Source: Cymbidium sinense
Taxonomy: Eukaryota; Streptophyta; Magnoliopsida; Asparagales; Orchidaceae
NCBI GenBank assembly: GCA_021442155.1
Contig: JAKCPB010000340.1
Coordinates: 33,878-97,877 of the forward strand
Length of the DNA stretch: 64,000 nucleotides
Reading direction: 5' to 3'
A model generated the notes under the pieces. The model did no database searches, was not told where the DNA came from, and saw only the letters and a list, made by a program, of their open reading frames with translations. Each line of letters starts with the position of its first letter. Position 1 is the first letter of the stretch. The translations under genes were made by a program, and so were the position numbers. Of the stretch, positions 6,440 to 46,918 are shown in pieces.

Positions 6440-6476
<37 letters not shown>

Positions 6477-15107: not shown

Positions 15108-15599
15108 TCCATCCTATTGGTTTGGACTATTACATTACATGTTTGACTGCATGATCAACTTCTGTTTAGTTTTGATGTTTCTTTGGATTTTTCTGATGCT
15201 AATTCCTGTTAGCCCTTTTAGGTTAGTTGTTGATCTCTATGGAATCTGCTGTTGGATTACTTACCCTAACCTTATTTGGGGTTTTACTGCTGCTGCTATT
15301 TTCACTAAAACCATTGCTTTTGGTAAGGTTTCTCCCTTGGAGGGAGATGGATTATTTTATGCTTTTCTTTCTTTCTTTACAAACTTCTTGCTCTAATTAT
15401 TCTATTTATGGGTCCTATTGTAATTTTTCATTATATCATTAAGGCTGTGTTTTTTCTCTTTTCCTGAATCTAGAAATTTGTTCATGGTATCATGACTTTG
15501 TTGTCTCATTATGTAATTGCTATAATTTTGTACAACTTCATGGCAGGCTCAAATTTATCTATCTTTTCTCTCTTTAATAGGATTGTGCCCACTCCTATG

Positions 15600-16980
15600 C
15601 TATCTAACCTCACCTCCATTACCTGTATGGAGAGCAACTGCAATAACCTTGCTATTATTATCCTTCAGGGATGGGATTTTATTCTTGATTTCATTTCACC
15701 TATTTTTTACTAGTGATGTTGGCTTAGTTTCGCTTTTGTCTTGAAGGATTTCAATGATGGTTTTTTCTTGAACCCTTTCGAGTCTATGTTGTCTCCTCCT
15801 TACTTATTTATCTTATGGTGGGTGCAACAATTATTTTGCTATTTTAATTGTTGGTTGTTGGATTATCGGTTCTTTAGTCCATGATCGACTGGGGTTATTT
15901 CTCATTTTTGCTATTTGACCGGGGCCGCTTATCATCTAATATTTGTGGACTACTTAATCTGCTACTATTTATTCCATCCTGGGTTTGTTAGACTTATGCA
16001 GATCCTTATGTTATCTTATGCACTGTCTATTCTGAATGGGGTTCTATGGTCAGCTAGCTATTATTTGCTATCTTGGATATTTGTTGTCTTAGTTACTTGC
16101 TGTCTTGGTTTTTTTGATTGTTCTTGCTAATCTCATCTCCCCAACTTGTATGGAGAGACACTGTTATACCCTTGTTATTATTATTATTTTCTCCTTCCAG
16201 GATTGGACTTTCTTTTTGTCTTCTTTCCAGTCTATGTTTACTAATCTTGTTGGCTTAACTGCTGGTCTGCTTTTCTTTATCTTGAAGGATTCCAATGTTG
16301 TCTCTCCTTTGAACCCTTTCTGTGCCTATGTTGTATCACTATTTTATTTTAATTTATCTTATGGTGGGTGTAATAATGGCTTTATTATTTTATTTATTGA
16401 CTGTGATTATGCTGCTACCTACTTGGTTACTAACTAATGCACTGTCTATTCTGAATGGGTGGCTTTATGGCCAGCTAGCTGTTATTTGCTATCTTGGTTG
16501 TTTGTTGTCTTGGTTATCTGCTATCTTGGTTTTTCAAGATTCCAATGTTGGCTCTCCTTTGAACCCCCTAAGTGTCTATGTTGTTTCTCTATTTTATATT
16601 GGATTATCTTATGGTGGGTGCAATAATTGTTTTGCTATTTTATCTATTGACTATGGGACTTTAGGGTCTATGTCCAGCTAGCTACTTATGGGGTTGGCTT
16701 ACTGATTGTCTTTGATGTTTGTGTCTGGGCTACTATTTATCACCTGATATCTGTGGACTACTTAATCTACTGCTATTTTTTCCATCTTAGTTTAGTTAGA
16801 CTTGTGCAGATCCTTGTGATTATGCTTCTATCTACTTGGTTATTATCTTATGCACTATCTATTCTGAATGGGTGGTTCTATGGACATGCCGTCTTTGTTG
16901 TCTTGTCTTGGTTGTGTCGATCTGGATTATCAAGTTTTATACCCAAAGATGTATTATCAGCTATCTTTTGATGCCTTTAT
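15600..16980 (+). repeat. Shuffled ~540-bp tandem repeats in the LINE copy 1 3' UTR
   Basis: Several blocks recur in the same order with small deletions: TGTATGGAGAG at about 15,623 and 16,147; TTGAACCC with a following TATGTTGT at about 15,767, 16,308 and 16,558; ATCTTATGGTGGGTG at about 15,810, 16,355 and 16,606; GCACT.TCTATTCTGAATGG at about 16,020, 16,439 and 16,852. Open stretches here (such as 16,105-16,437) are hydrophobic translations of T-rich repeats with no family signature, and I do not call them genes. Confidence 0.7.
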
Positions 16981-17820
16981 TTGGTACTGTTTACGGTGGG
17001 ATGCAGCCTATTTTTTGTGGTTATTAGTACAACTAATCTATTGCTGCATTCTAACCTTGGTTCTGTTAGAATTCTGCATCACTTGTTGTATTTGGGTTTG
17101 GGTTCTGCTGCCTTGCTTAACATTTGCTTTTTGTTAACATCTGCAATGTTATTAATAAGGGGTTGTTAACATCTACATTGCTTATTATGATTGGGTTTCT
17201 TTCGACTATACTCGTGGCTATACTCCCAAAAGTTTCATATATGTCTCATATGTTTGGCATTGATTGATTGAAGGATTTCAAGTTGATTTTTCTATTGTTC
17301 TCTTGTGGTGGGTTTTTATGCTGTCCTAATTATACTCTTGGCTATGGTTTTAAAAGGGATTTTGGCAAAGATGGCTCATTGTCATATGTATAGGGATTCT
17401 CATGCTATGGTGACTATATTGATGATAATTTTCTTGCATGGGTCCCCTTGTCTTTCTACTCTTTGCTATCTCCTTTCTATATTATATATAGCTTTGTTTA
17501 GGTTTGCAGGTACTAAGGCCCATAATACTTTCAACAAATGGCAGCTTTCTTCTCACAAATGCATTTCTCTTTTTCTCTTGCAGGTGCATTTCTCTTGTTC
17601 CCTTGTAGGTTTGCTCCCTAGTGTCATGCATTCTCTCATCCTGAAGGGCTTTGGCCAAGATCTATTCAATGGCTTATCTATGTTAATCAATTTGTATCTT
17701 TTGCTTTCCTTTACTCTTTTATTTTTTTTTTTATACTTATAGGGATTACTCACTAGGTTGATTGTAGCTATTTGAGCATAGAATTTATCCTATTAAGGAC
17801 CTTGTAACCCTCTTTTTGGT

Positions 17821-17852
17821 AATAAAATTCATATGGGGTTTCCCAAAAAAAA
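17821..17852 (+). terminator. LINE copy 1 polyadenylation signal and A-tail
   Basis: AATAAA at 17,821-17,826 lies about 20 bp before a run of eight A (17,845-17,852) that passes directly into CCCTAAA. This fixes the 3' end and the + orientation of the LINE. Confidence 0.75.
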
Positions 17853-20104
17853 CCCTAAACCCTAAACCCTAAACCATAAAAACCTAAAAGCCCAAACCCA
17901 AAATAAAAATAAAACCTAAAACTAAAATAAAAAATAACTTAAACCTAAATAAAATAAAAAATGATATAAAATAACACCCTAAACTAAAATCTAAACCTAA
18001 ACCTAAATCTAAACCTAAAAATAAAATAAAATAAAAAATAAAAACTAAGCTAAAATAAAATAAATAAAACTTAAACTAAACTAAAAATAAAATAAAGTTA
18101 TAACTAAAGAACCTAAATAAAATAAAAACTATATGTAAAATAAAAATAAAATAAACATAAAATAAAATAAAATAAAATAAAATAAAAACCTAAACCTAAA
18201 AAATAAACCTAAAAATAAATAAGAAATAAAACTTAAACCCTAAACTAAAAAAAAGCCTAAGCCTCAAATAAACAAAATAAAATAAACCTAAACCTAAATT
18301 AAAATAAATAAAACCAAAACCTAAACCTAAAATAATCTAAACATAAGCCTTAAAATAAATAACATAAAATAAACTAAAAAATAAAACCTAAAAAGAAACC
18401 TAAAAGAAAATCCTAAAACCTAAAACTAAACAAAAAAAATTAAAAAATTATACATAAACCTAAAAAATAAGATAAAAATAAAATAAACTAAAAAATAAAC
18501 ATAAAACAAAACATAAACCTCAAAAATAAACTAAAATAAAAAACCTGAACTAAATTCAATAAATCTAAAAGAAATAAACTAAAGTAATTAAAAATAAAAA
18601 ATAAACCTAAATAAAAATAAAAAATAAAATAAACTGAAAAAAAAAATAAATAAACCTAAACTTATGGTTTACTTAATTTTAAAAAAAAATAATCATTAAC
18701 CCTAAACCCTAAACCCTAAATCCGAAACCCTAAACCCTAATTCCCAAACCCTATAACTAGCTCTAAACCCTAAACCCTAACCTTAACCCTAACCCTTAAC
18801 CTAAACTAATCCTAAACCGTAACCTAACACTAAACCCTAAACCCTAAACCCTAAATAGTAAACCATAAAAACCCTAAACCATAAATCCTAAACCCTAACC
18901 CTAAACCTTAAACCCTAAAATTTGAAACCCTAAACTCTAATCCCTAAACCCTAAACCCTAAAATCCTAAAAACCTAAACCTAAAGAAAATAAACCTAAAA
19001 TAAAATAAATAAATAAACTAACCTAAATAAAATTATAAAAATAAAATAAAATAAAACCTAAACTAAAACCTAAACCTAAACCTAAAAATAAAACAAAATA
19101 AAAAATAAATATAAACTATAATAAAATAAATAAAAACATAAACTAAATAATGAAATATAAATAAACTTAAGATTTAAAAACCTAAATAAAATAAAAACTA
19201 AATGTAAAATAAAAAAAATAAACCTAAAATAAAATAAAATAAAACTAAATAAAACCTAAACCTAAAAATGAACCTAAAAAATAAACTAAAATAAATAAAA
19301 ATTAAACCTAAAATAAAAAAAAATAAATAAATAAAATACCTAAACCTAAAATCAAATAAAATAAACTAAAATAATTTAAAATCTAAACCTAAACCTAAGC
19401 TAACTAAGATAAAATAAACTAAAACCTAAACCTAAAATAAAAAACCTAAAAATAAACCTAAAAAAGCTAAAACCTAAAGATAAAAAAAATAAAATAAATT
19501 AAAACCTAAAATAAAAAAATAATAAACCTAAAAAAAAAAATAAAACATAAAAATAAACATAAAATAAAAAAAACCTAAAATAAATAAAATTAATATAAAA
19601 AAACCTAAACCTAAAATAAAAATAAACCTAAACTTAAAAAAATAAAATATAAATAAACTAAACTAAATTAAATAAAAAATAAACCAAAATAAAAAAAATA
19701 AATTAAACTAAAATAAATAAGTAATAAACTAAACAACCTAAACTTAAATTAATTAAAAAAAAAACCCTAAACCCTAATCCCTACATAAAATAACCTAAAC
19801 TTAACTAAAATAAGCCCTAAACCCTAAACTCTAAACCTAAACCATAAACCCTAAACCCTAAACCCTAAACCCTAAACCCTAAGCCTAAAACCCTAACTAA
19901 ACCCAAAAAAAATAAACCCTAAAATGCTAAACCCTAAATAATAAAAAACGCTAAACCCTAAAAAAAAAACCTAAAAACCCTAAACCCTAAACCCAAACCT
20001 AAACCCTAAAGCCCAAATAAAACCTAAACCTAAAGTAACTAAATAAATTAAAAAATAAACCTTAACCCTAAAAGCTAATAAACTTAAACCTAAACCTAAA
20101 CCCT
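17853..20104. repeat. Telomere-like satellite between LINE copy 1 and GRP copy B
   Basis: CCCTAAA at 17,853-17,880; ATAAA-type to 18,655; punctuation motif 18,661; CCCTAAA 18,690-18,970; ATAAA-type to about 19,735; weak punctuation motif; CCCTAAA about 19,750-20,020 with four perfect heptamers plus a partial one at 19,849-19,882; GRP leader from about 20,025 (AAAGTAACTAAATAAATT). This is the right end of the unit interrupted by LINE copy 1. No gene seen. Confidence 0.85.
18661..18690 (+). repeat. Array punctuation motif
   Basis: CTTATGGTTTACTTAATTTT then A-run, followed by a CCCTAAA block. The CTTATGG start is shared with the copy at 31,539. Confidence 0.75.
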
Positions 20105-20412
20105 AAGAATGGGTAAAACCTAAATAACATCATAAAAGCCTAAATATAAATAAAAAGTGGGGATCTACTTGGTGGTGGTACATGGAGGTAAAGAGTGAGG
20201 GATGCTATAATAGGGAGAGAAGCTATGATATCCAAATAAATAAACCAGAGAAAAAATAACCAATCCGATATGGAACTGTCTTTATCGTAGATAGTTCAAG
20301 TTTTCTAAAGCTTTTGATCCCATTTTTTATCTATGTTTGTGTCTAGAACTTGGTGTGTTACTTGATTGATGAAATCAAAAAGAAGAAATGAATCCAAACT
20401 TTATTAAAAAAA
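20105..20412 (+). pseudogene. GRP 3'-end fragment, copy B (shortened coding part)
   Basis: Starts AAGAATGGG after the leader at 20,025-20,104, as in copies C-F, but the glycine-rich coding part is largely lost or overwritten by satellite-like sequence (20,115-20,165). The 3' UTR is well kept: GGAACTGTCTTTAT, TAGATAGTTC, TTTTCTAAAGCTTTTGATC, GAACTTGGTGTGTTACTTG, ATTGATGAAATC, AAAAGAAGAAATG, ending in a run of A at about 20,405-20,412. The TAA block follows about 200 bp downstream, as for copies C and D. Confidence 0.75.
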
Positions 20413-20619
20413 CTAAAACCCTAAAGCCAAAACATGAACCCTAAACCCTAAACCCTAAAATAATAAAAAATAAAATCATAAAACTAACCTAAATGCTAAA
20501 CCTAAAGCTAACCCTAATCCTTAAACCCTAAACCTACAACCCTAAACCCTAAACCCTAAACCATAAACCCTAAAACCCTAAACCCTAAACCCTAAATCCT
20601 AAACCCTACACCCTAATAA

Positions 20620-21490
20620 GAAACAAATAAAACACTAAACTAAACTAACTAAAACTAAAACTAATAAATAAAAAAAAACTAATAAAATAATAAAGAAAAA
20701 CTAATAATAAACTAAGAAAAGTAAAACCAACTAAACTAAACTAACTAAATAATAACTAAAAAAACTAATAAACTAATAATAACAAAAAGTAACTAAACTA
20801 TTAAACAAACTAATAACTAAATTAAACATAAACAAAAAAACCTCACTAATAAACTAAATTAAATATAATAAAAAACTAAACTAAACCTAAACTCATAACC
20901 AAAACTAAACTAATAAACCTAAATTAAACCTAAAAAATAAACTAATATTAATAACTAAAATAAAACCTAAACCCCAAAACATAACCCTAACCTAATAAAT
21001 AACTAACTAATAATAAAACTAAACCCAATAAAACTAATAATAACTAAACTACCAAACTAAAACTAATAAACTAATTATTAATAAAATAACTAAAATAATA
21101 ATAACTAATAACCAAAACTAAACTAAAACTAAGAAACTAACTAAACCTAATAAACTAAATAAATAATAATTAAAAACTAATAAAACTAAATAAAAATAAC
21201 TAACACAAATTATTAAACTAATAATAAATTAAACTAAAATAAATAAATAACTAAACTAATAGTTATAAAAAAAATAATAATAATAATAATAATAACAAAC
21301 CAAACAAATAATAACTAAACAATAAATAAAACCTAAATAAATATAGTAAACATAATAATAAACATACTAAGAAAACTAAAACAAAAAACCAATAAACTAA
21401 CTAAACTAATAAACTAAAAAAAATAATAATAAATAAATAAACTAAACTAAAAAACTAATAAAACTAAAAAACTAAATAATAATATAACCT
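20620..21490. repeat. TAA-rich satellite block of unit B
   Basis: Opens with CCCTAATAAGAAACAAATAA and AAACACTAAACTAAACTAAC, nearly identical to the openings at 27,515 and 33,893. Mostly AATAATAACTAA-type units. Confidence 0.8.
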
Positions 21491-24400
21491 AATAACATAA
21501 AAACTAAAACCTAAACTAAATAAATAAACCTATAAACTAAACCTAAAGCTAATAAAACCTAAAAATAAATAAATAAAATAAAAATAAATAAATAAACTAA
21601 ACCTAAACTAAACTAAATAATAAAATAAACTAAATAAACTAAACTAAAAAATAAGCCTAAACATAAACCTAAACTAAATAAACTAACTAAACTAAACTAA
21701 ACTAAATAAACTAAACCTAAACCAAATAAACTAAACTAAATTAAATAAATCTAAACCTAACCTAAACCTAAACATAAACCTAAACTAATAAACTAAATAA
21801 ATAAACTAAAGTAAATAAAAATAAACCTAAACCTAAACTAAACATAAATAAATAAACCTAAAATAAAAAAAAATTAAATAAACTAAACTAAATAATAAAA
21901 CCTAAACTAAACCTAAACTTAAACCTAAACCTAAAAACTAAAAATAAACCTAAACCTAAACCTAAACCTTAAATAAATAATAAATAAACATAAATTAAAA
22001 TAAATAAATCAAAATAAAAATCAAAATAAACTAAATAAACCTCAACTAAACGAAAAACCAAAACTAAAATAAACTAAATAAAACCTAAACCTTATTAAAC
22101 CTAAACCTAAACAAATAAAATAAACTAAACTAAATAAATAAAAAATTAAATTAAAATAAACCTAAACAAATACCTAAACTAAAACTAAATAAACTGAAAC
22201 CCTAAACCTAAACCTAAAAATAAACTAAACCAAACCTAAATAAAACTAAATAAAACCTAAACCTAAAATAAAATAAACCATTAACTAAATAAATAAACCT
22301 AATAAACCTAAGTAAATATAATAAAATAAACTAAACTAAATAGATATAAATAAAATAAAATAAAATAAAATAAAAACCTAAACCTAAAATAAAAACCTAA
22401 CTAGAAATAAAAAAATGAACAAAAATAAATAAAACAATAAACTAAAATAAAATATTTTAACTAAAAATAAATAAGAAATAAAGTAAATAAAGAAATAAAC
22501 TTAAATAAATAAAATAAATAAATAAATAAAGATAAACCTAAACCCTAAACCCAAAATAAACTAAAACTAAATAAAACCTCAACCTAAACCAAAATAAATA
22601 AACTAAATAAAGAAATAAAAATAAACCTAGATTAAACCTATACTAAATAAACTTAAACTTAAACCTAAACCCAAAATAAAATAAAACTAAATAAACTAAA
22701 ATAAATAAAACATAATCCTGAACCTAAATAAATAATGAAAGTAAATAAATAAACAAACTAAATAAATAAACCTAAACGTAAACCAAAATAAATAAATAAA
22801 CTAAATAAATAAACCTAAACTAAATAAATAAACCTAAACTAAACTAAATAAACAAAACAATAAATAAATAAAAAACCTAAATCTAACCTAAACAAAATAA
22901 AACTAAAACTAAATAAACCTAAAAATAAAAATACATTAAACTAAACAAAAATAAATAAACCTAAACCTAAACTAAAAATAAACCAAAAGGTAAACATAAA
23001 TAAACCTAAATAAATAAACTAAACAAATAAAATACAAATAAAAACTAAAATAAAAATAAATGAACCTAAACCTAAAAATGAAAACCTAAACAACATAAAC
23101 CTAAATGAACCTAAACCTAAACCTATACTAAAATAAACTAAAAACCTAAACCTAAATAAACTAAACTACAAATAAAAATAAACCTAAACCTAAATGATAA
23201 TAAAATAAACCTAAACTAAACCTAAACCTAAAATAAAAACTAAATAAAAGCTAAACCTAAACCTAAATAAAAATAAAACATAAACAAAATAAACTAAACT
23301 AAATAAACCTAAATAAACATAAAATAAAAAATAAATAAACTAAATAAAACTTAAACTAAAATAAAACTAAAACCTAAACCTAAATAAAACCTAAACCCCA
23401 AACCTAAACTAAACTAAATAAACCTAAATCGAACTTAAATAAACTAAAAACCAAATAAAATAAACTAAACCATACTAAAAAACTAAAAATAAATAAACTA
23501 AATAGAAAATAAATAAAACCTAAACCTAAAATAAACATAAACCTAAATAAACATGAACTAAACTAAAATAAAACCTAAACTAAACTAAAAAAATAAATAA
23601 ATTGAAATAAAAAATAAAACATAAACCTAAACTAAAACCTAAACTAAAAAACCTAAATAAATAAATAACAAAATAAACCTAAATAAACTACCTAAACTAA
23701 ACTAAAAAATAAAACCTAAAAATAAATAAAACCTAAAGTAAAATAAAACTAAAAAAGTAAACTAAAAGTAAATAAACCTAAACCTATACTAAAACCAAAA
23801 CTTTAACTACATAAAAAATAATAAAAACAACCTAAACTAAACCTAAACCTAAAAAACTTATACCCTAAATAAAACCATAAAACCTAAATCTAAAACTATC
23901 CTAAACCCTAAACCCTAAATCTTAAACCATAAAACCCTAAACCTACTTAAACCCTAAACTAAACCTAATATCCTAAGACTTAAACCCTAAACCTTAAACC
24001 TAAACCTAAATCAAAACCCTAAATTAACTAAACCTAAACCCTAAACTCTAAACCCTAAACTAAATTTAAACTCCTAAACCTAACTTAAACCCTAAACCTA
24101 AACTCTAAATTAAAACCATGAATATTAAATTTTAAATTCAACCCTAAAATTTAAAAGTTTAAACCTTAAACTCCTAACACTTTAAACCTAAAAGCACTAA
24201 ATCTAAACTCAAACCTTAAACCTAAAACCCTAAACCCTAAATCCTAAACCTAAATCCTAAACTCCTAAACCCTAAATGTAAATCCATAAAATTAAAACCC
24301 TAAACCCCTAAGTTTAAACTCCTAAACCATAAAACTAATCCTAAACTCCTAAACTTAAACTCTATAATGCTAAACCCTAAATCCTAAACCCTAAAACCCT

Positions 24401-25223
24401 AAACCCAAAACCTAAAACCCTAAACCCTAACACCTAAACCCTAAACCCCAGACATACAATGCCAAAACCCAAAACCCAAAACCTTAAAACCCAAAACCTA
24501 AAACCCAAAACCCAAAACCCTAACCCCTAAACCCCAAAACCTAAGCCTAAACCCTAAACCCTAAACCATTAACCCTACACCCTAAACCCTAAACCCTAAA
24601 AACCTAAAGGCCTAAACCTAAACTAAATAAAATCTAAAAATAAAATAATTAAAAAACCTAAACCTAAATAAAATAAAATAAAATAAAATAAAATAAACTA
24701 AACTAAAATAAAATAAATAAAAATGTAAACTAAACTAAAAACTAAAATAAAGTAAAAGCTAAAAAAACCTAAATAAAATTAAAACTAAATGTAAAATAAA
24801 AAAAAACTTAAAATAAAATAAAATAAAAACTAAATAAAAACCTAAGCTTAAAAATAAAACCTAAAAATAAATAAAAAATAAAACTTAAAGCCTAAACTAA
24901 AATAAACCTAACCTCAAATAAACAAAATAAAATAAACCTAAACCTAAACCAAAATAAATAAGACCTAAACCTAAACCTAAACCATAAACTAAATAAAATA
25001 AAAATTAAATTAAATTAAACCTAAAACTAAACTAAAAAATAAAACCTAAAAAAATAAACCTAAAATAAAACCTAAAACCTAAAACTAAACCAAAATTTAA
25101 AATAATATAAACATAAAAAAAATAAATAAAATAAAACTAAACTAAAAAAAAAATAAATCAAAACCTAAACATAAAAAATACATTAAACTAAACTAAATAA
25201 AAAATAAACTAAATAAACATAGA

Positions 25224-25250
25224 CTTAATGGTTTACTTAATTTAAAAAAT
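25224..25250 (+). repeat. Array punctuation motif
   Basis: TTAATGGTTTACTTAATTTA then A-run, followed by a CCCTAAA block. Confidence 0.75.
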
Positions 25251-26514
25251 TAACCATAAACCCTAAACCCTAAATCCTAAACCCTAAACCATAAACCTCA
25301 AACCCTATAACTAACCCTAAACCCTAAACTCTAAACCTACAACCCTAAACCAAAAACTCTAAACCAAAAACCCTAAACCTTAAACCCTAAACCCTAACCA
25401 TAACCCTAAACCTAAACTAACCCTAAACCTTCCACTAAACCTTCTAAACCCTAAATAATAAACTTGAAAAACCCTAAACCCTAAATCCTAAACACTAAAC
25501 CCTAAACCCTAAACCCTAAACCATAATCCTTAGCCCTAAACCTTAAAACCCTAAACCCTAAAATGGAAAACCCTAAACACTAAACCCTAATATCCTAAAA
25601 ACCTAAACATAAACAAAATATAATCTAAAAATAAACTAAATAAATAAACTTAAACCCAAATAAAAGAAACACCTAAAATAAAACCTAAACCTAAACCTAA
25701 AATAAAATAAAATAAAAATAAAAATAAACTAAAATAAAATTCAGAAAAACATAAACTAAACTATGAAATAAAATAAACTTAAGATTTAAAACCTAAATAT
25801 AATAAAACTAAACTTAAAATAAAAAATAAAATAAATCTAAAATAAAGTAAAATAAAACTAAATAAAACATAAACCTAAAAAATAAACCTAAAATTAAACC
25901 TAAAATAAATAAAATATAAAATATAAACCCTAAACTAAAAAAATTAAACCTAAAATGAAAATAAAATAAACAAAATAAAATAAACCTAAACCTAAACTCA
26001 AATAAAATAAACATAAATAATTAAAACCTAAACCTAAACCTAAGCTAAATAAAATAAAATAAACTAAAAATAAACCTAAACCTAAATTAAAAAATAAAAC
26101 CTAAAAATAAACCTAAAATAAAAACCTTAAACGTAAAGCTAAAAAAAATAAAATAAAAACCTAAACGTAAACCAAAAAATAAAAAATAAAACTTAAACCT
26201 AAAAAAATAAAATAAAAATAAAACTCAACTAAAAATAAACCTAAACCTAAAAATAAACCTAAAATAACAACCTAAAATGTATACCTAAAAATAAAATAAA
26301 ACGAACCTAAACGAAAATAAAAAAAATAAACCTAAACTTAAAAAAATAAAATAAATATAAACTCAACTAAAAATAAATATAAACATTAACCTAAACTTAA
26401 AAAATAAACTAAAATAAAAAACCTAAAGTAAAATAAATAAATCTAAAATAAATAAACTAAACTAAATAAAATAAAACCTAAATAAAAATAAAAAAATAAA
26501 ATAAACTAAAACCT

Positions 26515-26543
26515 AAACCATTAATTTACTTAATTAAAAAAAA
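26515..26543 (+). repeat. Array punctuation motif
   Basis: ACCATTAATTTACTTAATTA then A-run, followed by four perfect CCCTAAA heptamers. Lies 1.29 kb after the previous motif. Confidence 0.75.
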
Positions 26544-26885
26544 CCCTAAACCCTAAACCCTAAACCCTAAACCTAAACCCTAAACCCTAAAAAACCCTTA
26601 ACTGTAAACCCTAAACTCTAGACCCTAAACCCTAAACCTTAAACCCTAAACCCTAAACATTAAACGCTAACCTTAGCACTAAACCCTAAACCCTAAAAGT
26701 ATAAACCCTAAAACCCTAAACCCTAAACCCTAAACCCCCCCAAACCCTAAATGCTAAACCCTAATTTAACCCTAAACATAAAACCTAAACCCCAAACCCT
26801 AAACCTGAACTTAAAGTGTGTAAATAAATTAAAAAATAAACCTAAATCCTAAAATCTAATAAACTAAAACCTAAACCTAAACCCT

Positions 26886-27325
26886 AAGAATGAACTCGAG
26901 TTGGAACATCACTCAACCAGGTCTAGATCAATGGAGGCAAAAGGTGGAGGCGACGACATCACAAAGGTGGATAAGGAGGGTGGTGAAAGGTGGTGGCAGG
27001 TTATGGTAGGAGGAGCCATGGAGGTTATGGGTGGTGGTGGTAGGAAAGATTGTAGATAAGATGGTAGATCCAATTACTCGAGAGGCCGGGTGGTTCTGAC
27101 AGGAATTAGAGAAATTGAAGAACGATCGATCTGATCTACTTCTTATGGAACTGTGTCTTTATAGTAGAGACATTTATAGTTTTTTATGGCTTTTGATTTG
27201 CTCTATGAGTGTTCATTTTTTATCTATGTTGTCGCTTGTGTCTTTGAGAACTTGGTGTGTTACTTGACTGATGAAATTAAAAAGAAGAAATGATGATTCT
27301 AAATTTATTCTCTATTAAAAAAAAA
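26886..27325 (+). pseudogene. GRP 3'-end fragment, copy C
   Basis: Begins at AAGAATG after the leader. The coding part keeps the RRM end region (GGAACATCACTCAACCAGGT, with a deletion) and glycine-rich GGTGG/GGAGG codons, then AATTACTCGAGAGGCCGGG (Tyr-Ser-Arg-Gly-Arg) and a terminal AGAAATTGA, TGA at 27,116-27,118. The Trp codon of the usual NW-R-N end reads TAG here. The 3' UTR is long and well kept (AACGATCGATCTGATCTACT, TATAGTAGAGA, TTTTGATTTGCTCTATG, GAACTTGGTGTGTTACTTGA) and ends in a run of nine A. The parent family binds RNA in nucleus and cytoplasm. Frameshifts and the missing RRM rule out function here. Confidence 0.8.
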
Positions 27326-27514
27326 TCAAAGTCCCTAAAGCCTGAACCCTAAACCTAAAACCTTAACCCTAAACCCTAAAACCCAAAAAATAATCAAAAA
27401 ATAATAATAAAAAAAAAACTGTAACCCTAAGTGCTAAACCCTAAAACTAACTCTAAACCTACAACCCTAAACCTACAACCCTAAATCGCAAAACCCTAAA
27501 CCCTAAACCCTAAA

Positions 27515-28440
27515 CCTTAATAAGAAACTAATAAAACACTAAACTAAACTAATTAAAATTAAAACTAATAAAAAATAAACTAAAACTATAAACTAATAAT
27601 AAATAAAATGAATAATAAACTAAAATAAAAAAACAAATAAAACTAACTAAACAAACAACTAAATAACAAACTAATAAATTAATAATAACAAAACTAACTA
27701 AACTAATTAACAAAGTAATAACTAAATTAAATAAAACAAAAACCCCACTAATAAACTCACTAAAAATAAATTAAACTAATAAAAATAAAAAAACTAAACT
27801 AAACCTAAACTATATTAACAAAAACTAAACAAAAAACTAACTAAATTAAACCCAAATAAAATGCTAACTAATATAACTAATAAAACCTAAACTAAACAAC
27901 TAACTAATAAATAACTAACTAATAAAAAAACAAAACCCAATAACTAAACTAATAATAACTAAACTAACTAAACTAAAACTAATAACTAATAAGCTAAAAC
28001 TAAAAAATTAACTAAATAATTAATAAATTAGTAATAATAATAACTAACTAATAACTAAAACTAACAACTAAACTAAACTAATAAACTAATAAACTAACTA
28101 AACCTAATAATAAACTAAGTAAATAATAATTGTTAAAACTAATAATAAAATGAAAAAAACTAATAAACTAAAACTAAATAACTAATAACAACTAACACTA
28201 ACCTAATAATAAATTAAACTAAATAAACTAATAACTAAACTAACAATAATAAACTAAATAATAAATAAAACCTAAATAAATATACTAAATATAATAATAA
28301 TAAACTAACCTAAATAACTAGCTAATTATAATAATAAACTAATTAAACTAATTAAACTAATAAATAATAATAAAAAATAAACTAAACAAAAAATTAATAA
28401 TACCTAAAAAATACTAAATATTAATAAAACCTAATTAAAA
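27515..28440. repeat. TAA-rich satellite block of unit C
   Basis: Opens TAATAAGAAACTAATAAAAC like units B and D; AATAATAACTAA-type units follow. Length is close to that of unit B (about 0.9 kb). Confidence 0.8.
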
Positions 28441-31400
28441 ATTAAACCTAAACTAAAAAGATAAACCTAAACCTAAGCCTAAACCTAAACCTAAACCTAA
28501 AACATAAAATAAATCCTAAAAAATTAACTAAATAAAATAAATAAATAAACCTAAACCTAAACCTAAACTAAACTAAAGGATAAACTAATTTAAAAATAAA
28601 TCAAAAATAATCCTAAACCTAAACCTAAACCTAAACCCTAAACTAAAGTAAACCTAAACTCTAAACATAAACTAAATAAACTAAATGAAAAATAAATAAA
28701 CCTAAACTAAATAAAATAAACCTAAACCTAAACCTAAATCTAAACATAAACTTAAACCTAATCCTAAATAAATAAAACTAAACTAAATAAAATATACTTA
28801 AACCTAAACTAAACCTAAATAAATATCCTAAAATAAAAAATAAATTAAATACAAAGCTAAAAAAATAAAACCTAAATTAAGCCTAAACCAAATCAACCTA
28901 AAACAAAAAAAAATAAACCTAAGCCTAAACCTAAACCTAAATAAATAAAAAAAATAAACTAAATAAATAAATAAACTAAATATACCTAAACTAAAATAAA
29001 TAAATAAAAATAAAAATAAAAATAAAAATGAACTAAATAAACCTAAACTAAACTAAATAACCTAAACTAAAAATCCAAACTAAAATAAACTAAATAAAAT
29101 AAATTAAATAAATAAACTAAATAAATATATAAAAATAAACCTAAACTAAACCTAAACTAAATAAACCTAAACCTAAACCCCAAACCCAAAATAAAATAAA
29201 ACTACAAAAACTAAACTAAATAAAATATAAACCTAAACCTAAATAAACTAAAAAAATAAATAAAGTAAATAAATAAACATAAACCTAAACTTAAATAAAT
29301 AAATAAACTAAATAAATAAACCAATTAAATAAACCTAAACTTAAAACTAAATAAAGAAATAAACATAAACCTAAACTAAACCTATACTAAATAAACCTAA
29401 ACCAAAACACCCTAAGCCCAAAATAAAATAAAATTAAATATATTAAACTAAAAAAAACTTAAAACAAAACCAAAATAAATAAATAAACTAAATAAGTAAG
29501 CATAAACCTAAACCTAAATAAATAAATAAACTAAATAAATTAACCTAAACCTAAACTAAATTAAATAAAAGAAAAACTAAATAAAAAAAATAAAAATAAA
29601 CATGAACCTAAACCAAAACCTAAACTAAAACTAAAACTAAATAAACCTAAAAAACTAAAATAAAAATAAATAAATTAACCTAAACCTAAACTAAAAAATA
29701 AACCAAATAAATAAACACAAATAAACCTAAATAAAATAAACTAACCTAATAAAAAAAATAAAAACTAAAATAAAAATAAATGAACCTAAACCTAAAAATA
29801 AAAAACCTAAACTAAATAAACCTAAATAAACTTAAACCTAAACCTAAATCGAAACCTAAACCTAAATCAAAACCTAAACCTAAATAAACTAAACTACAAA
29901 TAAAAATAAACCTAAACCTAAATAAAATTAAATAAACCTAAACTAACCTAAACCTAAATAAAAAACTAAATAAAATAAACTAAATAAAACCTAAAACCTA
30001 AACCTAAACCAAAATAAAAAATAAAACCTAAACTAAATAAACTAAACTAAATAAACCTAAATAAAAATAAAAGAAAAAATAAATAAAATAAATAAAACCT
30101 ATACCTAAACCCAAATAAAACCTAAACCCCAAACCTAAGCTAAACTAAATAAACCTAAACCTAAACTAAATAAACTAAACACTAAATAAAATAAAATAAC
30201 TATACTAAAAAAAACTAAAAATAAATAAAATAAAAAATAAATAAAACCTAAACCTAAAGTAAACCTCAACCAAAAAACCTAAACCTAAATAAACATAAAC
30301 TAAACTAAAATAAAACCTAAACTAAACTAAAATAAAAAATAAATTAAAATAAAAAATAAAACATAAACCTAAACCTAAACCTAAACTAACAAAAAAAAAA
30401 CTAAATAAATAAATAATAAAATAAACCTAAATAAACCTATATCTAAACTAAACTAAAACTAAAAACCTAAAAAATAAATAAAACTAAAAAAAATTAACTA
30501 ACCTAAAAATAAATAAACCTAAACCTAAACTACATAAAAAAACTTAAACCTAAACCTAAACCTAATGAAAATAAAACCCTATACCCTAAACTAAACTAAA
30601 CCCTAAACCTAAACTAAACCCTAAACCCTAAAACCTAAACCCTAAATCAAAAAACTAAACCCTAAACTATAAATATAAATAAACCCTAAATAAACCCTAT
30701 AAACCTAAAACCTTAAAACCTTAAACCCTAAACTAAACCTAATAAACTTAAACTAAACTAAACTAAACCAACTATAAAGTAAACACAAATCTAAACCTAA
30801 ATCCTAAATTAACTAAACTAAACCCTAAACCCTAAACTAAACCTAAACCCTAAAATCTAAAGCCTAAACACTAAATAAACTTAAACCCAAAACCATAAAA
30901 AACCCTAAACTCTAAAGACTAAACTAAACCTAAAAAAAGCATAAACCTAAAACACTAAACCATAAACTAAAATAAATCTAAACTAAAAGCTACCCTAAAC
31001 CCTAAATATATAAGCCTAAACCCTAAACCCTAAACCCTAAAACCCTAAACCTTAAACCCTCAACCCTAAACCCACCCTAAACCCTAAACCCTAAAACCTA
31101 AAAAGCCTAAACCCAAACTAAATAAAATCTAAAAATAAAATAAATAAAAAAAACCTAGGCCCAAATAAAAAAAGAAATAAAATAAAATAAAAATCTAAAC
31201 TAAAAACCTAAACCTAAAGATAAACCTAAACCTAAAAAAAAGCCTAAACTTAAAAATAAACCTAAACTTAAAAATAAACCTAAACCTAAAAGTAAACCTA
31301 AGACATAAAACTAAACCAAAAATTAAAAAAATATACCTAAACCTAAAAAATAAGATAAAAATAAAATAAACTAAAAAATAAACAAAAAACTAAACCTTAA

Positions 31401-31538
31401 CCTCAAAAATAAACTAAAACTAAAAACTTAAACTAAAATAAATAAATCTAAAATTAATAAATTAAACTAAGTAAAAATAAAGAATAAACCATAATAAAAA
31501 TAAAAAATTAAATAAACTAAACTAAATGAACCTAAACC

Positions 31539-31563
31539 TTATGGTTTACTTAATTTCAAAAAA
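31539..31563 (+). repeat. Array punctuation motif
   Basis: CTTATGGTTTACTTAATTTC then A-run, followed by a CCCTAAA block. Confidence 0.75.
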
Positions 31564-32816
31564 AATAACCATAAACCCTAAACCCTAAACCCTAAATCCT
31601 AAACCCTAATCCCCAAACCCTATAACCAACCGTAAAGCCTAAACCCTAAACCCTAAACCACAAAACCTAACCCTAACCCTAAACCCTAAACCCTAAACCC
31701 TAAACTAACCCTAAACCTTAATCTAGCCCTAAACCCTAAACCCTAAACCCTAAATACAAAACCTAAGAAACCCTAAACCCTAAAACCTAAACACTAAACT
31801 CTAAACCATTAACCCTAAACCCCAACCCTAAACCATAAACCATAAAGCCTGAAACCCTAAACCCTAAAACCTAAACCCTAATCCCTAAAATCCTAAAAAC
31901 CTAAACCTAAACTGAATAAAACCTAAAATTAAAATAAATAAATAAACTTAAGCCTAAATAAAATTATAAAATAAAATAAAATAAAAACCTAAAATAAAAC
32001 CTAAACCTAAACTTAAAAATAAAATAAAATAAAAAAATAAAACTAAACTAATGGAAAATAAATGAAAACATAACCTGAACTATGAAATAAAATAAAATAA
32101 AATGTAAAATAAAAATAAAATAAACCTAAAATAAAATAAAATAAAATAAAATAAAAATCTAAACCTAAAAAATAAACCTGCAAATAAAACCTAAAATTAA
32201 ATAAAAAATTAAACCTAAACCCTAAACTAAAAAAAATTAAACCTAAAATAAAAATAAAATAAATAAAATAAAATAAACCTAAACCTAAACTAAATTAAAA
32301 TAAACTAAAATAATTAAAACTAAAAGTAAATAAAAATAAAATAAACTAAAAATGAACCTAAACCTAAACTAAAAAATAAAACCTAAAAATAAACCTAAAA
32401 TAGAAAGATAAAATCTAAAGGTAAAAAAATATAATAAAAACCTAAACGTAAACCTAAAAATAAAAAATAAAGCATAAACCTAAAAAATAAAATAAAAATA
32501 AAATTCAACTAAAAATAAACCTAAACCTAAACAAAAAATAAAACCTAAGAATAAACTTATAATAAAAACCCAAAACATAAACCTAAAAAATTAAAATAAA
32601 GTCATGAACCTAAACCTAAAAATAAAAAATAAAACCTAAACTTAAAAAATAAATCTAAACATAAACCTAAACCTAAAAAATAAACTAAAATAAAAAACCT
32701 AAACTAAAAAATAAACCTAAAATAAATAAACTAAACTAAATAAAAATAAAATATAAACCTAAATAAAAAATAAAATAAACTAAAATAAATAACTAATAAA
32801 CTAAATAAACCTAAAC

Positions 32817-32841
32817 TTACTAGTTTACTTAATTAAAAAAA
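32817..32841 (+). repeat. Array punctuation motif
   Basis: TTACTAGTTTACTTAATTA then A-run, 1.28 kb after the previous motif, matching the 1.29-kb spacing in the neighbouring unit. Confidence 0.75.
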
Positions 32842-32954
32842 CCTTAAACCTTAAATTCTAAACCCTAAACCCTACACCCTAAATAAAAAAACTAACCCTA
32901 AACCCTTAACCTTAAAAAACCCTAAACCATAAACTCTAAACCTTAAACTCTAAA

Positions 32955-33001
32955 CCCTAAACCCTAAACCCTAAACCCTAAACCCTAACCCTAACCCTAA
33001 A
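32955..33001 (-). other. Longest near-perfect telomere run; predicted G-quadruplex on the - strand
   Basis: Seven consecutive CCC tracts: four CCCTAAA, two CCCTAA, one CCCTAAA. The - strand therefore reads as GGG tracts with 3-4 base loops, enough for a G-quadruplex. Other perfect runs reach only four or five units (19,849-19,882; 26,544-26,571; 47,464-47,491). Folding is predicted from the pattern, not shown. Confidence 0.6.
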
Positions 33002-33223
33002 CCAAAACCCTAAAAGCATAAATCCTAAAACCCTAAACTCTAAACCCTAAATCCTAAATGCTAAACCCTAAACACTAAACCCTAAACCCTAACCCTAAAC
33101 CCTAAACCCTAAACCCCATACCCTAAACCCTAAACATGAAACCTAAACCTAAAGTATCTAAATAAATTAAAAAATACACATAAACATAAAAACCTAATAA
33201 ACTTATACCTAAACCTAAACCCT

Positions 33224-33695
33224 AAGAATGGCGGAACCTTGAAGGCAGGAACATCACCGTCAAGCAGGCTCAGTCTAGATCTAACGATTGAGGTGAAGTC
33301 AGAGGCGACAGTTATCGTAGTGGTAGTGGGGGATCTGGAGGTGCTTGTGGATATGGAAGTGGTGTTCAGAGTAGTGGTGGTTATGGAGATAGGAGGAGCG
33401 ACGGAGGTTATAGCTGTGTTGGTGGCATAGGGAGAGATTGTAGATATGATGGTGGATCCCGCTACTTGAGAGGCCGGGTTGTTCTAGGGAACTAGAATAT
33501 GAATAACGATCCAATCTGCTAACGGAATGTCTTTATAGTAGATGGTTCTAGTTTTCTGTGGCTTTTGATCTGCTTCATACGTGCTCATTTTGTATCTATA
33601 TCATCGCTTGTGTCTTTGAGAACTTGGTGTGTTACATGATTGATGAAATCAAAAAGAAGAAATGTTAAATCTAAATTTATTCTCTGCTAAAAAAA
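33224..33695 (+). pseudogene. GRP 3'-end fragment, copy D (best-kept 5' part)
   Basis: The start reads AACCTTGAAGGCAGGAACAT then CACCGTCAAGCAGGCTCAG, i.e. a Leu-x-Gly-Arg-Asn-Ile-Thr-Val-x-Gln-Ala-Gln segment. This is the known C-terminal end of the RRM in GRP7/GRP8-type plant glycine-rich RNA-binding proteins. Glycine-rich codons follow (GGTAGTGGGGGATCTGGAGG, TATGGAAGTGGTG), then a TACTTGAGAGGCCGG end region, a stop, a 3' UTR and an A-run at about 33,689-33,695. Reading frames open for 63 codons from 33,239 and on the opposite strand, but neither is the glycine-rich frame throughout. The leader lies at about 33,143-33,223. Confidence 0.82.
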
Positions 33696-35120
33696 CCAAA
33701 AACCCAAAGACCAAAAACCTGAACCCTAAACCTAAACCCTAAACCCTACACCCTAATAATAATAAATAAAATAAAATAAATAAAAAAAACCTTAAACCTA
33801 AATGCTAAACCCTAAAACTAACCCTAATCCTTAAACCCTAAACCTACAACCCTAAACCCTAAACCCTAAACCCTAAACCCTAACCCTAAACTCTAATAAG
33901 AAACTAATAAAACACTAAACTAAACTAACTAAAACTAAAATTAAAAAATAATAAAATAAAATTATTAAATAATAAACTAAAACTAGTAAACTAATAATAA
34001 ACTAAAACTAATAATAAACTTAAACAAAAACTAATAAAAACTAACTAAACTAAACAAACTAAATAATAACTAGAAAACTAAGAAACTAATAATAACAAAA
34101 ACTAACTAAATTATTAAACAAACTAATAACTAAATTAAACATAAACAAAAAAAACCCCACTAATAAACTAATTAAAAATAAACTAAACTAATAAAACTAA
34201 TAAAAACTAAACTAAACCTAAACTATTAATTAAAACTAAACTAATAAACTAACTAAATTAAACCCTAATAAATAACTAACTAATAATAATAACTAACTAA
34301 TAAACCTAAACCATAAACATAACTAACCTAATAAATAACTAACTAATAAAAGAACTTAACCCAATAACTAAACTAACAATAACTAAACTAACTAAACTAT
34401 AACTAATAACTAATAAACTAAAACTAATCAACTAACTAAATAATTAATAAATAATTAATAATAATAACTAACTAATAACTAAAACTAATAACTAAATTAA
34501 ACTAATAAACTAATAAACTAATTAAACCTAATAATAAACTAACTAAATAATAATAGCTAAAACTCATAATAAAATGAAAAACTAATAAACTAAAACTAAA
34601 GAACTAATAACAACTAACACTAAACTAATAAACTAATAATAAATTAAACTAAATAAAAGTAATAACTAAAATAATAATAATAATAATAATAAACTAATCT
34701 AATAATAAATTAAAAATAAATAAAACATAAATTAATATATTAAATCTAATAATAATAAATAAACCTAACAAACTAACTAATAATAATAATAAACTAATAA
34801 AGCTAACTAAACTAATAAACTAATAAATAATAATAATAATAATAATAAATAAATAAATAAAATTAAAAACTAATAATACCTAAAAATACTAAATAATAAT
34901 AAAAAATAATAACATAAAAACTAACTATACTAAACTAATAATAATAAACTAACTAACAAATAAATAAAACTAAACTAAACTAAATACTAAACTAACTAAA
35001 CTAATTAAACTAATAATAACTAACTAATAATAAAAAAACTAGTAATAACTAAACTAACTAAATAGAAAACTAATAAAAAACTAAAAAATTAATAAACCAA
35101 TAATAATAATAACCAAAAAC

Positions 35121-35160
<40 letters not shown>

Positions 35161-35894
35161 TAAATAAACTTAAAACTAAACCCTAAACCTAAATTAATAA
35201 TAGTAATAATAATAAAACTAATAATAATAAACTAAACTAAAGTAAAATAACTGATAACTAAACTAATAAAACTAATAATAATAATTAAATAATAACTAAA
35301 AATACTAATAAACTAATAATAAAACTAAACTAAAACTAACTATAACTAACTAATAAAACCTAATAAACTAATAAATATTAAACTAAAACCAATAACTAAT
35401 AAAAAAAATAAAACTAATAATAAACTAAATAAACCAAATAATAACTAATTAATAACCTAAACTAATAATTAATAAAACTAATAAACCTAAAAACAAACTA
35501 ACTAATAAAACTAAACTAATTAATACATAAACCTAAACCCTAATAAATAATAAACACTAGAACTAAACTTATAAACTAATAATAAATAATTAAATAACTA
35601 ACTAAAATTAAACCCTAATCCTAAACTATTAAACCATGAAAACTAACAAATAAATAATTATAATAATAATTATACCTAATAAACTAACTAATAACTAATG
35701 ATAAACTAATAATAAAACACATAACTAAAAAAATTAATAATAACTAAATGATAAAAATCTAATAAATTAATAACCAAATAAAACAAAACTAACTAAATAA
35801 CTAAACTAAATAACTAAAGTAATAAACTTAATAAATAAACTAATAATAATAATAATAATAATAATAACTAATAACAACTAAGCTAAAAAAACTA

Positions 35895-35935
<41 letters not shown>

Positions 35936-36671
35936 TAACTAGTAACTAACTAACTAATCTAATAAACTAATAATAATAAAAATAATAATAAACTAACTAA
36001 TAAATAACTAAATAACTAAATCGTATACCCTAACTAAATGAATAAACTAAATAATAGTAATAAAAATAATAATAATAAATATAAACTAAAGAAAAAAACT
36101 AAATTAAAACAAAACTAATAATAAACCAACTAACCAAACAAATATAATAAATAATAAATAATTAAAAAAATCTAAACCATAAACCAAACTAAAAAACTAG
36201 TAATAATAAACTAATAAACTTAAACCCATAACTAAACTAATAAGAATAATAAACTAAAAGAATAAATTAATAAATAAACTAACAAACCTAAACTAATAAA
36301 ACTAAACCACTAACTAAAACTAACTAAAACCTAAATAATAATAGAACCATAAACTAATAATAATATCTAACTAAACTAAATAAATAACTAAGTAACTAAT
36401 AATAACTAATAAATAAACTAAAATAAAGTATACCCCCATAAATAAACTAACTAAATAAACTAATAAACTAAACCTAAACCCTAAACTAACCTAAAAAAAT
36501 AATAACTAACACTGAAACTAATAAAACTAAACTTACAACCTAACTACAACTAAACTAACTAAACTAAACATAAAACTAATAATAAACTAATAATAACCTA
36601 AAATTAATAAAACCAAATAATAATTAATAAACACTAAACCTAAAACCTAAACCCTAAAACTAAACTAAACC
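33696..36671. repeat. Telomere-like satellite with expanded TAA block after GRP copy D
   Basis: A short CCCTAAA block (33,720-33,893) leads into a TAA-rich block that runs to about 36,640, three times longer than its counterparts. It includes pure TAA runs at 35,121-35,159 and 35,895-35,933. A few CCCTAAA units return just before the LINE fragment at 36,672. No gene seen. Confidence 0.85.
33893..36640. repeat. Expanded TAA-rich satellite block
   Basis: Starts with the same TAATAAGAAACTAATAAAAC opening as units B and C, but is about 2.7 kb long against about 0.9 kb in those units. Local slippage or an extra duplication is likely. The CCTAAA/ATAAA block and long CCCTAAA block expected next are replaced by the LINE fragment junction. 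Confidence 0.75.
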
Positions 36672-36945
36672 CTATTATTGGGCAATTTTGGGTTCCTTCA
36701 TGTTCTTGGTGAGTTTTTGAGCCCTTTCTCTCTTGGATTCCCTATAGATTTCTACCTTGGGCCAATCTCAACCTGTTCTTTTCATAGTGCCCTGACTCAT
36801 GGCATTGACTTCTTCAAATCCATGGGATAAATCCCATGTGCTAATGGATCCTACTAGGGAATTAGATTTTTTGGGTAATCCTACTTCTAAATTACTTGCT
36901 GTTATTAAATCTTTCAAAAAGGTTTTAGCTAGTAAGAATTGTCAA
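36672..36945 (+). mobile_element. LINE fragment: 5' UTR and first 49 codons of ORF1 only
   Basis: Matches the 5' end of LINE copy 2 (shared TTTTTGA.CCCTTTC, a CCTT.GGC segment, and ATGGC start). ATG at 36,799 opens an uninterrupted frame of 50 codons ending in CCC-TAA at 36,946-36,951, where the telomere repeat itself supplies the last codon and the stop. It contains the conserved KSFK segment (VIKSFKKVLASKN). The rest of the ~8-kb LINE is missing and the array resumes in phase at 36,946. LINEs normally lose their 5' end at insertion, so a 5'-only piece needs a later deletion or template switch. Confidence 0.8.
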
Positions 36946-38422
36946 CCCTAAACCTACAACCCTAAACCCTTAAAACCCTAAAGCCTAAATCCTAAGCCTT
37001 AAACCCTAAACCCTAAACCCTAAACCCAAAATACTTAAAAACCTAAACCTTAAGTAAATAAAACCTAAAAATAAAATAAATAAATAAACCTAAACCTAAA
37101 TAAAATAAAATAAAATAAAATAAAATAAATTCAACACCTAAACTAAAAATGAAACCTATACCTAAAAATAAAATAAATAAAACTAAAAAAAATAAAAAAA
37201 ATAAATAAAAACCTAAACTAAACTAAAAAAATAAAATAAAGCTAAGAATATAAAACCTAAATATAATAAAAAAAATTTAAAATAAAAAATAAACCTAAAA
37301 TAAAATAAAATAAAAACTAAATAAAAACCTAAACCTAAAAATAAATAAAAAATAAAACCCAAACCCTAAACTAAAAATAAAAACATAACCTAAAATAAAA
37401 ATAAAATAAACCTAAACCTAAACTAAGATAAACTAAACTAAAATAAATAAAACTTAAACTTAAACCAAAAATAAACTAAACATAAACCCTAAACTATAAA
37501 AGAAAAAAATAAACCTAAACGTAAACTAAAAAATAAAACCTAAAAATAAACCTAAAATAAAAACCTAAAACCAAAACACTAAACCCTAAACCCTAAAAAG
37601 CAAAAAAACCTAAACTTAAACTAAATGAAACCTAAATATAAAATAAATAAAAAAACCTAAACTAAAATAAAATAAATAAATAAAATAAAATAAAAACATA
37701 AACTAAAACCTAAATCAAAACAAAAACCTTAAAAAAATAAAATAAAAAATATTAACTAAACTAAAATAAAATAAATAAAATCTTAAACTAAATTAAAAAA
37801 ATTAAGAACCTAACTAAAATAAAAACTAAACCTAAAATTAAAATAAAATAAACCTAAAATAAAATAAAATAAACATTAAATAAAAACCTAGACCTAAAAA
37901 ATAAACCTAAAAATAAATAAAATATAAAATGTAGACCTTAAACTAAAAAAAAAACTTAAACCTAAAATAAAAATTAAATAATCTTGAACCTAAACTAAAA
38001 TAAACTAAACTAAAACAAACAAAACATAAACCTAAACCTAAAATAAACTATACCTAACATAAACTTAAACTAAATTAAATAAAATAAACTAAAATGAACC
38101 TAAACCTAAAGTAAAAAAAATATTAGCTAAAATAATCCTTAAATAAAAACCTAAAACCTAAACCTAAAAAAATAAATAAAAAATGTAAACCTAAACCAAA
38201 AAATAAAAAATAAAACTTAATCTAAAAAATAAAATAAAATAAAAACTAAACTAAAAAATAAACCTAAACCTAAACCTGAACCTAAACATAAACTTAAAAA
38301 AACTAAAATAAAATAAACTTAAAATAAATAAACTAAACTAAATAAAAATAAAAATAAACCTAAATAAAAATAAAAAATAAAATAAACTAAAATAATTAAA
38401 AAATAAACTAAATAAACCAAAA

Positions 38423-46886: not shown

Positions 46887-46918
<32 letters not shown>

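Follow-up and report, generated by a model that had tools for sequence, protein, structure and literature searches.

The window analysed here, 64,000 nucleotides of Cymbidium sinense DNA (assembly GCA_021442155.1, contig JAKCPB010000340.1, forward strand), contains tandem units of telomere-like repeats that carry the truncated end of a gene for a glycine-rich RNA-binding protein (GRP). The best explanation of the whole, and one that is held to be highly likely, is a fossil telomere-derived satellite family in which the end of a GRP mRNA was retroposed, amplified and then left to decay. The source assembly totals 3,525,751,733 bases in 2,174 contigs, with the window being positions 33,878-97,877 of C257, an unplaced contig of 98 kb. 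C1-C20 are apparently chromosomes; among the lengths of C1-C13, C15, C17 and C20, C1 is the longest at 377 Mb and C20 the shortest at 73 Mb, and C21 is 150 kb. The loci compared with the window lie at C1:20.40 Mb (L027 and L052), at C1:297.73 Mb (L051 and L053) and on C6 (L050), with the parent gene in L046.

The gene fragment is identified as GRP because protein homologues settled it. Its consensus translates to NGQNLDGRNITINQAQSRSSGGG...GNWRN and then a stop, and the homologues of this peptide are mostly plant glycine-rich RNA-binding proteins; a Pfam search with the peptide returned no family, and a search of the PDB gave a weak match (E 0.01) to a plant glycine-rich RNA-binding protein. 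The parent gene is found at C13:36,950,260-36,950,849, with coding parts at 1,301-1,414 and 1,504-1,890 of L046 that are open when joined, a putative two-exon structure read from the sequence with the intron taken from GT..AG. Among the best 120 of 7,362 matches, the parent protein is closest to proteins of Dendrobium (94% identical over 51% of the query) and Phalaenopsis (92% over 53%), with the others listed reaching 84% at most.

Copies in the satellite follow the parent gene from GAATGGGCAG, within exon 2, across the stop codon and the 3' untranslated region (3'UTR) to TTTGTTCTTTGTT, after which an A-run of 5-10, with telomeric words behind it, follows in 21 of 25 copies. The parent gene reads TGATCATT after the same point, with an A-run of 3 at most. 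As the poly(A) is present in the copies and absent from the gene, the founder was a 5'-truncated retroposed mRNA, and its descendants carry untemplated poly(A) at the mRNA end, at the cleavage site, in the way that marks a processed pseudogene. The 5' end is also informative, as 126 of the 149 protein matches are of the array type and 106 of these start at query residues 55-61, adjoining the breakpoint at residue 62. With most sampled copies having one 5' breakpoint, a single founder is the simplest reading. The 24-base junction pattern used for counting includes this breakpoint and cannot itself show that other breakpoints are rare.

Searched through the whole assembly, that junction pattern (CCCTAAGAATGGGNNGAACCTTGA, with up to 3 mismatches) occurs at 27,934 forward and 27,112 reverse places, 55,046 in all, whilst the same pattern read backwards occurs at 2 and 3. 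The count is a floor, since the pattern recovers 6 of the 11 GRP copies known on the contig of the window, all of which are on the forward strand; extrapolated from this one contig, the true number of junctions may be near 10^5. High copy number and head-to-tail arrays are what is expected of a satellite, and both are found. A 32-base word from the 3'UTR, in the form found in the long units, occurs at 9,269 and 9,099 places on the two strands. Exact matches to it are scattered over C1 between 20 and 370 Mb of its 377 Mb and occur on many further contigs. Of 84 such matches 38 fall on C1, which makes up 10.7% of the genome, whilst C4, C8, C10, C12 and C13 have none against 18.7 expected, these contigs having been chosen after the list was viewed. 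The array-type protein matches are distributed as 47 of 126 on C1, 21 on C3, 10 on C9 and 20 on small contigs, with one copy each on C4, C12 and C13 and two on C10. C8 is absent from both lists, and the chromosomes are unevenly loaded.

The initial annotation had suggested an unusual subtelomeric or interstitial megasatellite, telomere-derived and with a gene fragment, that might be species-specific. Part of this stands: the arrays at C1:20.40 and C1:297.73 Mb are interstitial in a 377-Mb contig. The subtelomeric option finds no support in the spread of the 3'UTR word along C1, and with 55,046 junctions the family is genome-wide and not a local structure. In 28 sampled stretches (13 of 10 kb at round positions and 15 of 1 kb at random positions), 103 of 1,448 segments of 100 bp are telomere-like, about 7%, a figure with a wide error as three stretches hold 89 of them. 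No canonical telomere was seen in the three contig ends sampled, 1 kb each (L043, L044 and L045, which are the ends of C1 and the start of C2). C1 starts within decayed array DNA.

Within the window, units 1 and 2 share an order of eleven parts, which runs from the truncated GRP fragment through CCCTAAA, TAA-rich, CCTAAA/ATAAA, long CCCTAAA and ATAAA blocks to an anchor ('punctuation') motif, CCCTAAA, ATAAA, a second anchor and finally CCCTAAA plus a leader. Percent identity was tried as a test of the repeat and rejected as uninformative, for a shuffled unit also reaches 0.94 at lenient gap costs, so that only alignment scores count; scores were compared with those from shuffles of telomere-like words within 250 bp. 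With the GRP fragment removed, units 1 and 2 score 6,655 against 5,475 for the shuffles (standard deviation, sd, 45), and with stricter gaps their telomere-like parts score 2,855 against 2,420 (sd 24). When one unit is rotated by 500-5,000 bp, the score drops from 6,778 to 4,664-5,960, and all of the unit pairs that were scored outdo their local word-shuffles, by 6 to 62 sd. The shared eleven-part order had been claimed for units of 6,781 and 6,338 bp in 20,105-33,223, and the coordinates and the order are both right, with unit 1 at 20,105-26,885 (6,781 bp) and unit 2 at 26,886-33,222 (6,337 bp). The lack of a continuous diagonal at an offset of 6.3-6.8 kb, which had been named as telling against the repeat, was not found, with rare shared 26-mers concentrated at offsets of 6,250-6,750 (35 of 540 runs, the two fullest bins). 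A third unit interrupted by LINE copy 1, one of the long interspersed nuclear element (LINE) insertions, is likewise borne out, as the 1-kb flanks of this copy map to unit positions 3,298-4,413 on the left and 4,403-5,411 on the right and are thus contiguous on the map of unit 1.

The 34.6 kb of telomere-like DNA in the window comprises 6,762 words, of which TAAA makes up 14%, CCTAAA 9%, CTAAA 8% and CCCTAAA only 5%, a composition other than the Cycas type of block, which consists mainly of heptamers with base substitutions. G makes up 1.5% of this DNA, where about 3.4% is predicted from the mutation rates of the GRP fragments, and it is therefore possible that the telomere-like repeats are renewed or purged faster than the GRP fragment they adjoin. 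No open reading frames of at least 90 amino acids were found inside the units, except for two antisense low-complexity frames at 47,085-47,369 and 48,093-48,371, the latter running into LINE copy 3. The units do not encode a reverse transcriptase of their own, as a telomere-targeted retrotransposon would, and the copies that were read retain no coding function.

In block order units 1 and 2 are indeed two copies of one unit, as had been proposed, but they are not one monomer repeated, for their bodies belong to two types, a and b. Units at C1:20.40 and C1:297.73 Mb have nearly the block order of the window, and at these two loci the monomer types follow one another in a fixed order, which in the window is seen by bodies only. 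At four-taxon sites in the GRP fragments of the two loci, 22 group first with first and second with second, 2 group units of the same locus and none group the crossed pairs. Plain GRP distances are 0.096 between the a copies, 0.145 between the b copies (L027b-L051b) and 0.167 and 0.195 between neighbours. For the bodies, the first 3.3 kb were compared and the score per kb above shuffles was taken. Among type a, that is unit 1 of the window and the first units of both C1 loci, the excess is 175, 176 and 182 per kb; unit 1 itself gives 175 and 182 with the type a units of C1:20.40 and C1:297.73 Mb, against 74 with its neighbour. The two second units on C1 give 183 with each other, and unit 2 of the window gives 129 and 71 with them. 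The 15 pairs other than a-a and b-b give 38-90, with physical neighbours at 46, 90, 74 and 84. The GRP fragment of unit 2 is also b-like (6 of 10 b-derived sites, 3 of 8 a-derived), and that of unit 3 is a-like (6 of 10, against 2 of 10 b-derived). A dimeric a-b higher-order repeat of about 13 kb, in the strict sense of the term, is thus well established at both C1 loci and has support in the window. Measured from first to third GRP, the dimer is 12.7 kb at C1:20.40 Mb and 13.1 kb in the window; the 14.3 kb examined at C1:297.73 Mb contain no third GRP, so the length of the dimer varies. The type b units of both C1 loci (L052 and L053) have a second TAA-rich block that has no counterpart in the type a units or in unit 2 of the window.

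A number of observations weigh against this picture of retroposition and ordered dimers. The crossed pair L027b-L051a, at 0.138, is closer than L027b-L051b, and the types at L027 and L051 are accordingly set apart by site patterns and bodies, not by plain distance. The value of 71 for unit 2 is no better than that between types, the degraded GRP fragment of unit 1 leans towards b (2 of 5 a-derived sites, 4 of 7 b-derived), and the body of unit 3 matches neither type. At C1:20.40 Mb the place of the long CCCTAAA block holds a GC-rich stretch dense in GGGCC words (L027:3,780-4,270, C1:20.4025-20.4030 Mb), which is not a clean insertion, as its removal lowers the score against unit 1. Of the two anchors, just one is found at C1:297.73 Mb. 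Other arrangements are found, such as the 3.1-kb units on C6 (L050) and unit 4, as well as spacings near 1.9 kb on C257 and C1, and the eleven-part unit is thus one form among several. As regards the founder, the fragment starts downstream of the sole intron read in the parent gene, so that loss of the intron cannot be shown, and with telomeric repeats on both flanks a target-site duplication is unrecognisable. Furthermore, 20 of the 126 array-type matches start at residues 42-54, at least 7 residues upstream of the common breakpoint, which is either chance extension or a few copies with a different breakpoint. Array lengths and copy number come from one assembly, and collapse or misassembly could affect both.

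The anchor motif is weak when taken alone, with 13 sites at two substitutions compared with 4-10 in ten block shuffles. It does mark a sharp step in composition, for which 26 of the 29 sites listed on C257 were used, those at 13,095, 16,131 and 53,621 (contig coordinates) being excluded as chance or degenerate. Across the anchors, CCCTAAA goes from 0.00 to 0.46 of words, the rich side extending for about 250-300 bp, and the mean C-run step is 1.57, compared with a mean of -0.01 (sd 0.12, maximum 0.37) for 500 random anchors. The modules are therefore polar, and followed along the G strand they pass from degenerate repeat into canonical repeat in the manner of a natural telomere, which is suggestive, although not proof, of an origin from chromosome ends.

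The CG- and CHG-heavy spectrum of transitions that the copies show is the one expected of methylated DNA. In 25 copies compared with the parent gene, transitions amount to 33% at CG, 30% at CHG, 12% at CHH and 7% at A/T sites, whilst transversions amount to 11, 9, 7 and 6% respectively, and copies with more than 400 compared sites differ from the parent by a mean of 19.4%. Neighbouring copies are hardly closer than others, with 16 neighbour pairs at 0.242 and non-neighbours at 0.251, a difference for which 23% of random draws are as low. The tree of copies is star-like with long tips, and within it the eight long-unit copies that can be placed form a clade (support 0.94). The family thus looks like the relic of an old burst rather than a satellite under present homogenisation.

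A scheme in four steps would account for these data. The 5'-truncated 3' end of a GRP mRNA, with its poly(A), became joined on both sides to C-strand telomeric repeats, an arrangement that can be read at the junctions of the copies. A LINE-type reverse transcriptase may have made this copy, primed from the T-rich G-strand of a telomeric array, which explains the orientation of the fragment; the use of the T-rich strand as a primer for poly(A) would also explain why the LINE pieces of the window have the same direction. The composite was then amplified into the tandem units of about 1.3-7 kb that are seen, the long ones ordered a, b, and blocks of about 13 kb were carried to distant sites, likeliest through circles or break-induced replication and not by one-by-one transposition. 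Lastly, amplification ceased, with the copies, probably methylated as their spectrum of changes suggests, decaying independently and LINEs and an LTR-like element (LTR, long terminal repeat) inserting among them. The founder may have formed either within an array or at the end of a chromosome, since telomeric repeats would hide a target-site duplication. A founder at the chromosome end, in which the 3' overhang of the telomere G-strand primed reverse transcription of a GRP mRNA at its poly(A), the cDNA end was capped anew by telomerase, and the end-structure was multiplied by telomere-type recombination and later spread internally, is rather unlikely; if true, it would amount to a seed-plant counterpart of HeT-A, but involving a host mRNA.

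Among the rival readings, one would have the GRP fragments as independent insertions of a non-autonomous retroelement targeting telomere-like DNA, with a tandem order that is only apparent. Retroposition would fit the many copies spread over many contigs, their poly(A) ends and their C-strand orientation, but the sharing of one 5' truncation point by 106 of 126 array-type matches, the kilobases of telomere-like flank that align between loci and the a-b order of neighbours common to distant loci make independent insertion distinctly improbable. Low-complexity DNA inflates identity, as the shuffled unit at 0.94 illustrates, and only assembly sequence is at hand, so it might be supposed that these are ordinary decaying interstitial telomeric repeats in which the block order is noise or an artefact of assembly. 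Noise of this kind would hardly score 6 to 62 sd above local word-shuffles in every pair, nor recur in the same order at two places 277 Mb apart on C1 with anchors at a sharp step in composition, and the idea is considered very improbable. Telomeric composition and the single orientation of the GRP copies on the contig would fit a local subtelomeric or interstitial megasatellite of limited genomic extent, a reading scarcely credible in view of 55,046 junctions genome-wide and of 3'UTR words from 20 to 370 Mb of C1 and on many contigs.

It has also to be asked whether the satellite is functional, for instance as pericentromeric or centromeric chromatin kept by selection. Comparable telomeric blocks are pericentromeric in Cycas, according to the available part of PMC9827991, and C1 is strongly enriched (38 of 84 3'UTR matches, 47 of 126 protein matches). 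Star-like divergence, neighbours without homogenisation and a spread along C1 rather than in one place suggest relics instead, which makes a selected function quite unlikely. Under the preferred reading of a decayed, telomere-derived family, its present role would most likely be that of inert or selfish heterochromatin.

Table 1. Positions in the window of the units, GRP copies, anchors and LINE insertions.
Feature	Position	Strand	Remarks
Unit 1 (type a by body)	20105..26885	+	6,781 bp; from sequence reading and body scores
Unit 2 (type b)	26886..33222	+	6,337 bp; block order as unit 1; typed by body and fragment sites
Unit 3	33223..40651	+	TAA-rich block expanded; holds short LINE 5' fragment; fragment a-like at 6/10 sites, body of neither type
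Unit 4	40652..45176	+	Short form without TAA-rich block
Unit 5	45177..48260	+	Incomplete; cut by LINE copy 3
Unit split by LINE copy 1, left part	5635..9384	+	Unit positions about 451-4,410
Unit split by LINE copy 1, right part	17849..20104	+	Unit positions about 4,400-6,781
Leader ahead of GRP fragment	26810..26888	+	Like CCTAAAGTGACTAAATAAATTAAAAAATAAACC...CCCTAAG; by eye
Anchor motif	25210..25256	+	...GTTTACTTAATTTAAAAAA
Other anchors	near 2,076, 3,760, 4,844, 18,668, 26,525, 31,545, 32,824, 38,431, 39,381, 40,299, 44,929, 46,585		
GRP copy 1	2470..2837	+	5' end degraded; BLAST match 2,680-2,837
GRP copy 2	20105..20405	+	With deletions; BLAST match 20,260-20,405
GRP copy 3 (type b)	26886..27323	+	
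GRP copy 4 (type a)	33223..33695	+	
GRP copy 5	40650..41085	+	
GRP copy 6	45173..45649	+	
LINE copy 1	9385..17848	+	Exo_endo_phos and zf-RVT above cut-off, RVT_1 just below; sits inside a unit
Short LINE 5' fragment in unit 3	36676..36945	+	By eye; no BLAST match to LINE copy 1 at E 1e-4
LINE copy 3	48266..52760	+	67% identical to copy 1 over about 1.5 kb; array ends here in the window

The insertions in the array are themselves diverse. LINE copies 1 and 3 are only 67% identical, and at least two LINE families have therefore inserted; a lineage search with the LINE peptide gave no match at E <= 0.001 among 136 candidates. The A-run of LINE copy 1 directly adjoins CCCTAAA. An LTR-type element is apparently nested in LINE copy 3, at about 52,760-61,000 of the window, with related stretches around 54,612 and 60,470 that have a 37-mer in common.

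Higher-order repeats of the alpha-satellite type have ordered monomer types, in which equivalent monomers share sites that neighbours do not. The orchid satellite resembles these in its ordered types and in the sites shared by equivalents across places, yet its monomers are 6-7 kb, only a dimer is seen and there is no sign of recent homogenisation. For Cycas, the available text of Vozarova 2022 (PMC9827991) describes TTTAGGG-type repeats and their variants amplified interstitially on a very large scale in methylated, pericentromeric blocks, the variants being held to have arisen after relocation. Large interstitial telomeric amplification with variants is common to both plants, whereas the single or double heptamer substitutions described for Cycas differ from the kilobase monomers, anchors and shortened words (CCTAAA, CTAAA, TAAA) of the orchid, where each GRP unit also carries a retroposed gene end. 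Megabase arrays similar to telomeres are known in Solanum (Tek and Jiang 2004 and later work, cited in PMC8621592), with circles proposed as a route; they are likewise a telomere-derived tandem amplification, but the accessible part of PMC8621592 mentions for them neither a retroposed mRNA end nor a dimeric, kilobase-scale order. The non-LTR elements that insert in telomeres (SART/TRAS, Zepp, HeT-A) and the Drosophila telomeric tandem repeats with poly(A) tracts, which are thought to derive from retro-copies, share with the orchid poly(A)-ended copies in telomeric DNA (PMC10088271, in the portion available). Unlike SART/TRAS, Zepp and HeT-A as given there, the orchid unit has no reverse transcriptase, is a retro-copy of a host mRNA and forms arrays that are interstitial and old.

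No dimeric megasatellite of telomeric origin with a piece of host mRNA fixed in it is described in the accessible parts of PMC9827991, PMC8621592 and PMC10088271, and the available main text of the Cymbidium ensifolium genome paper (PMC8633000) has no word beginning 'telomer'. Among the matches listed, none of the open-licence titles in PubMed Central names this satellite, the subscription literature being outside the scope of the search. Telomere-derived satellites are thus already known, whilst the present composition and scale look new.

What the family offers is a satellite whose birth can be read, as the parent gene, the common breakpoint and the untemplated poly(A) together give a rooted marker in the units that bear GRP. 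Unlike pure telomeric repeats, such units can be assigned to types and arranged in a tree, and both amplification and long-range dispersal are thereby made testable. For the orchid itself, the telomere-like satellite takes up a noticeable share of the genome, roughly 7% in the small sample, and it probably adds to the size of the largest chromosome.

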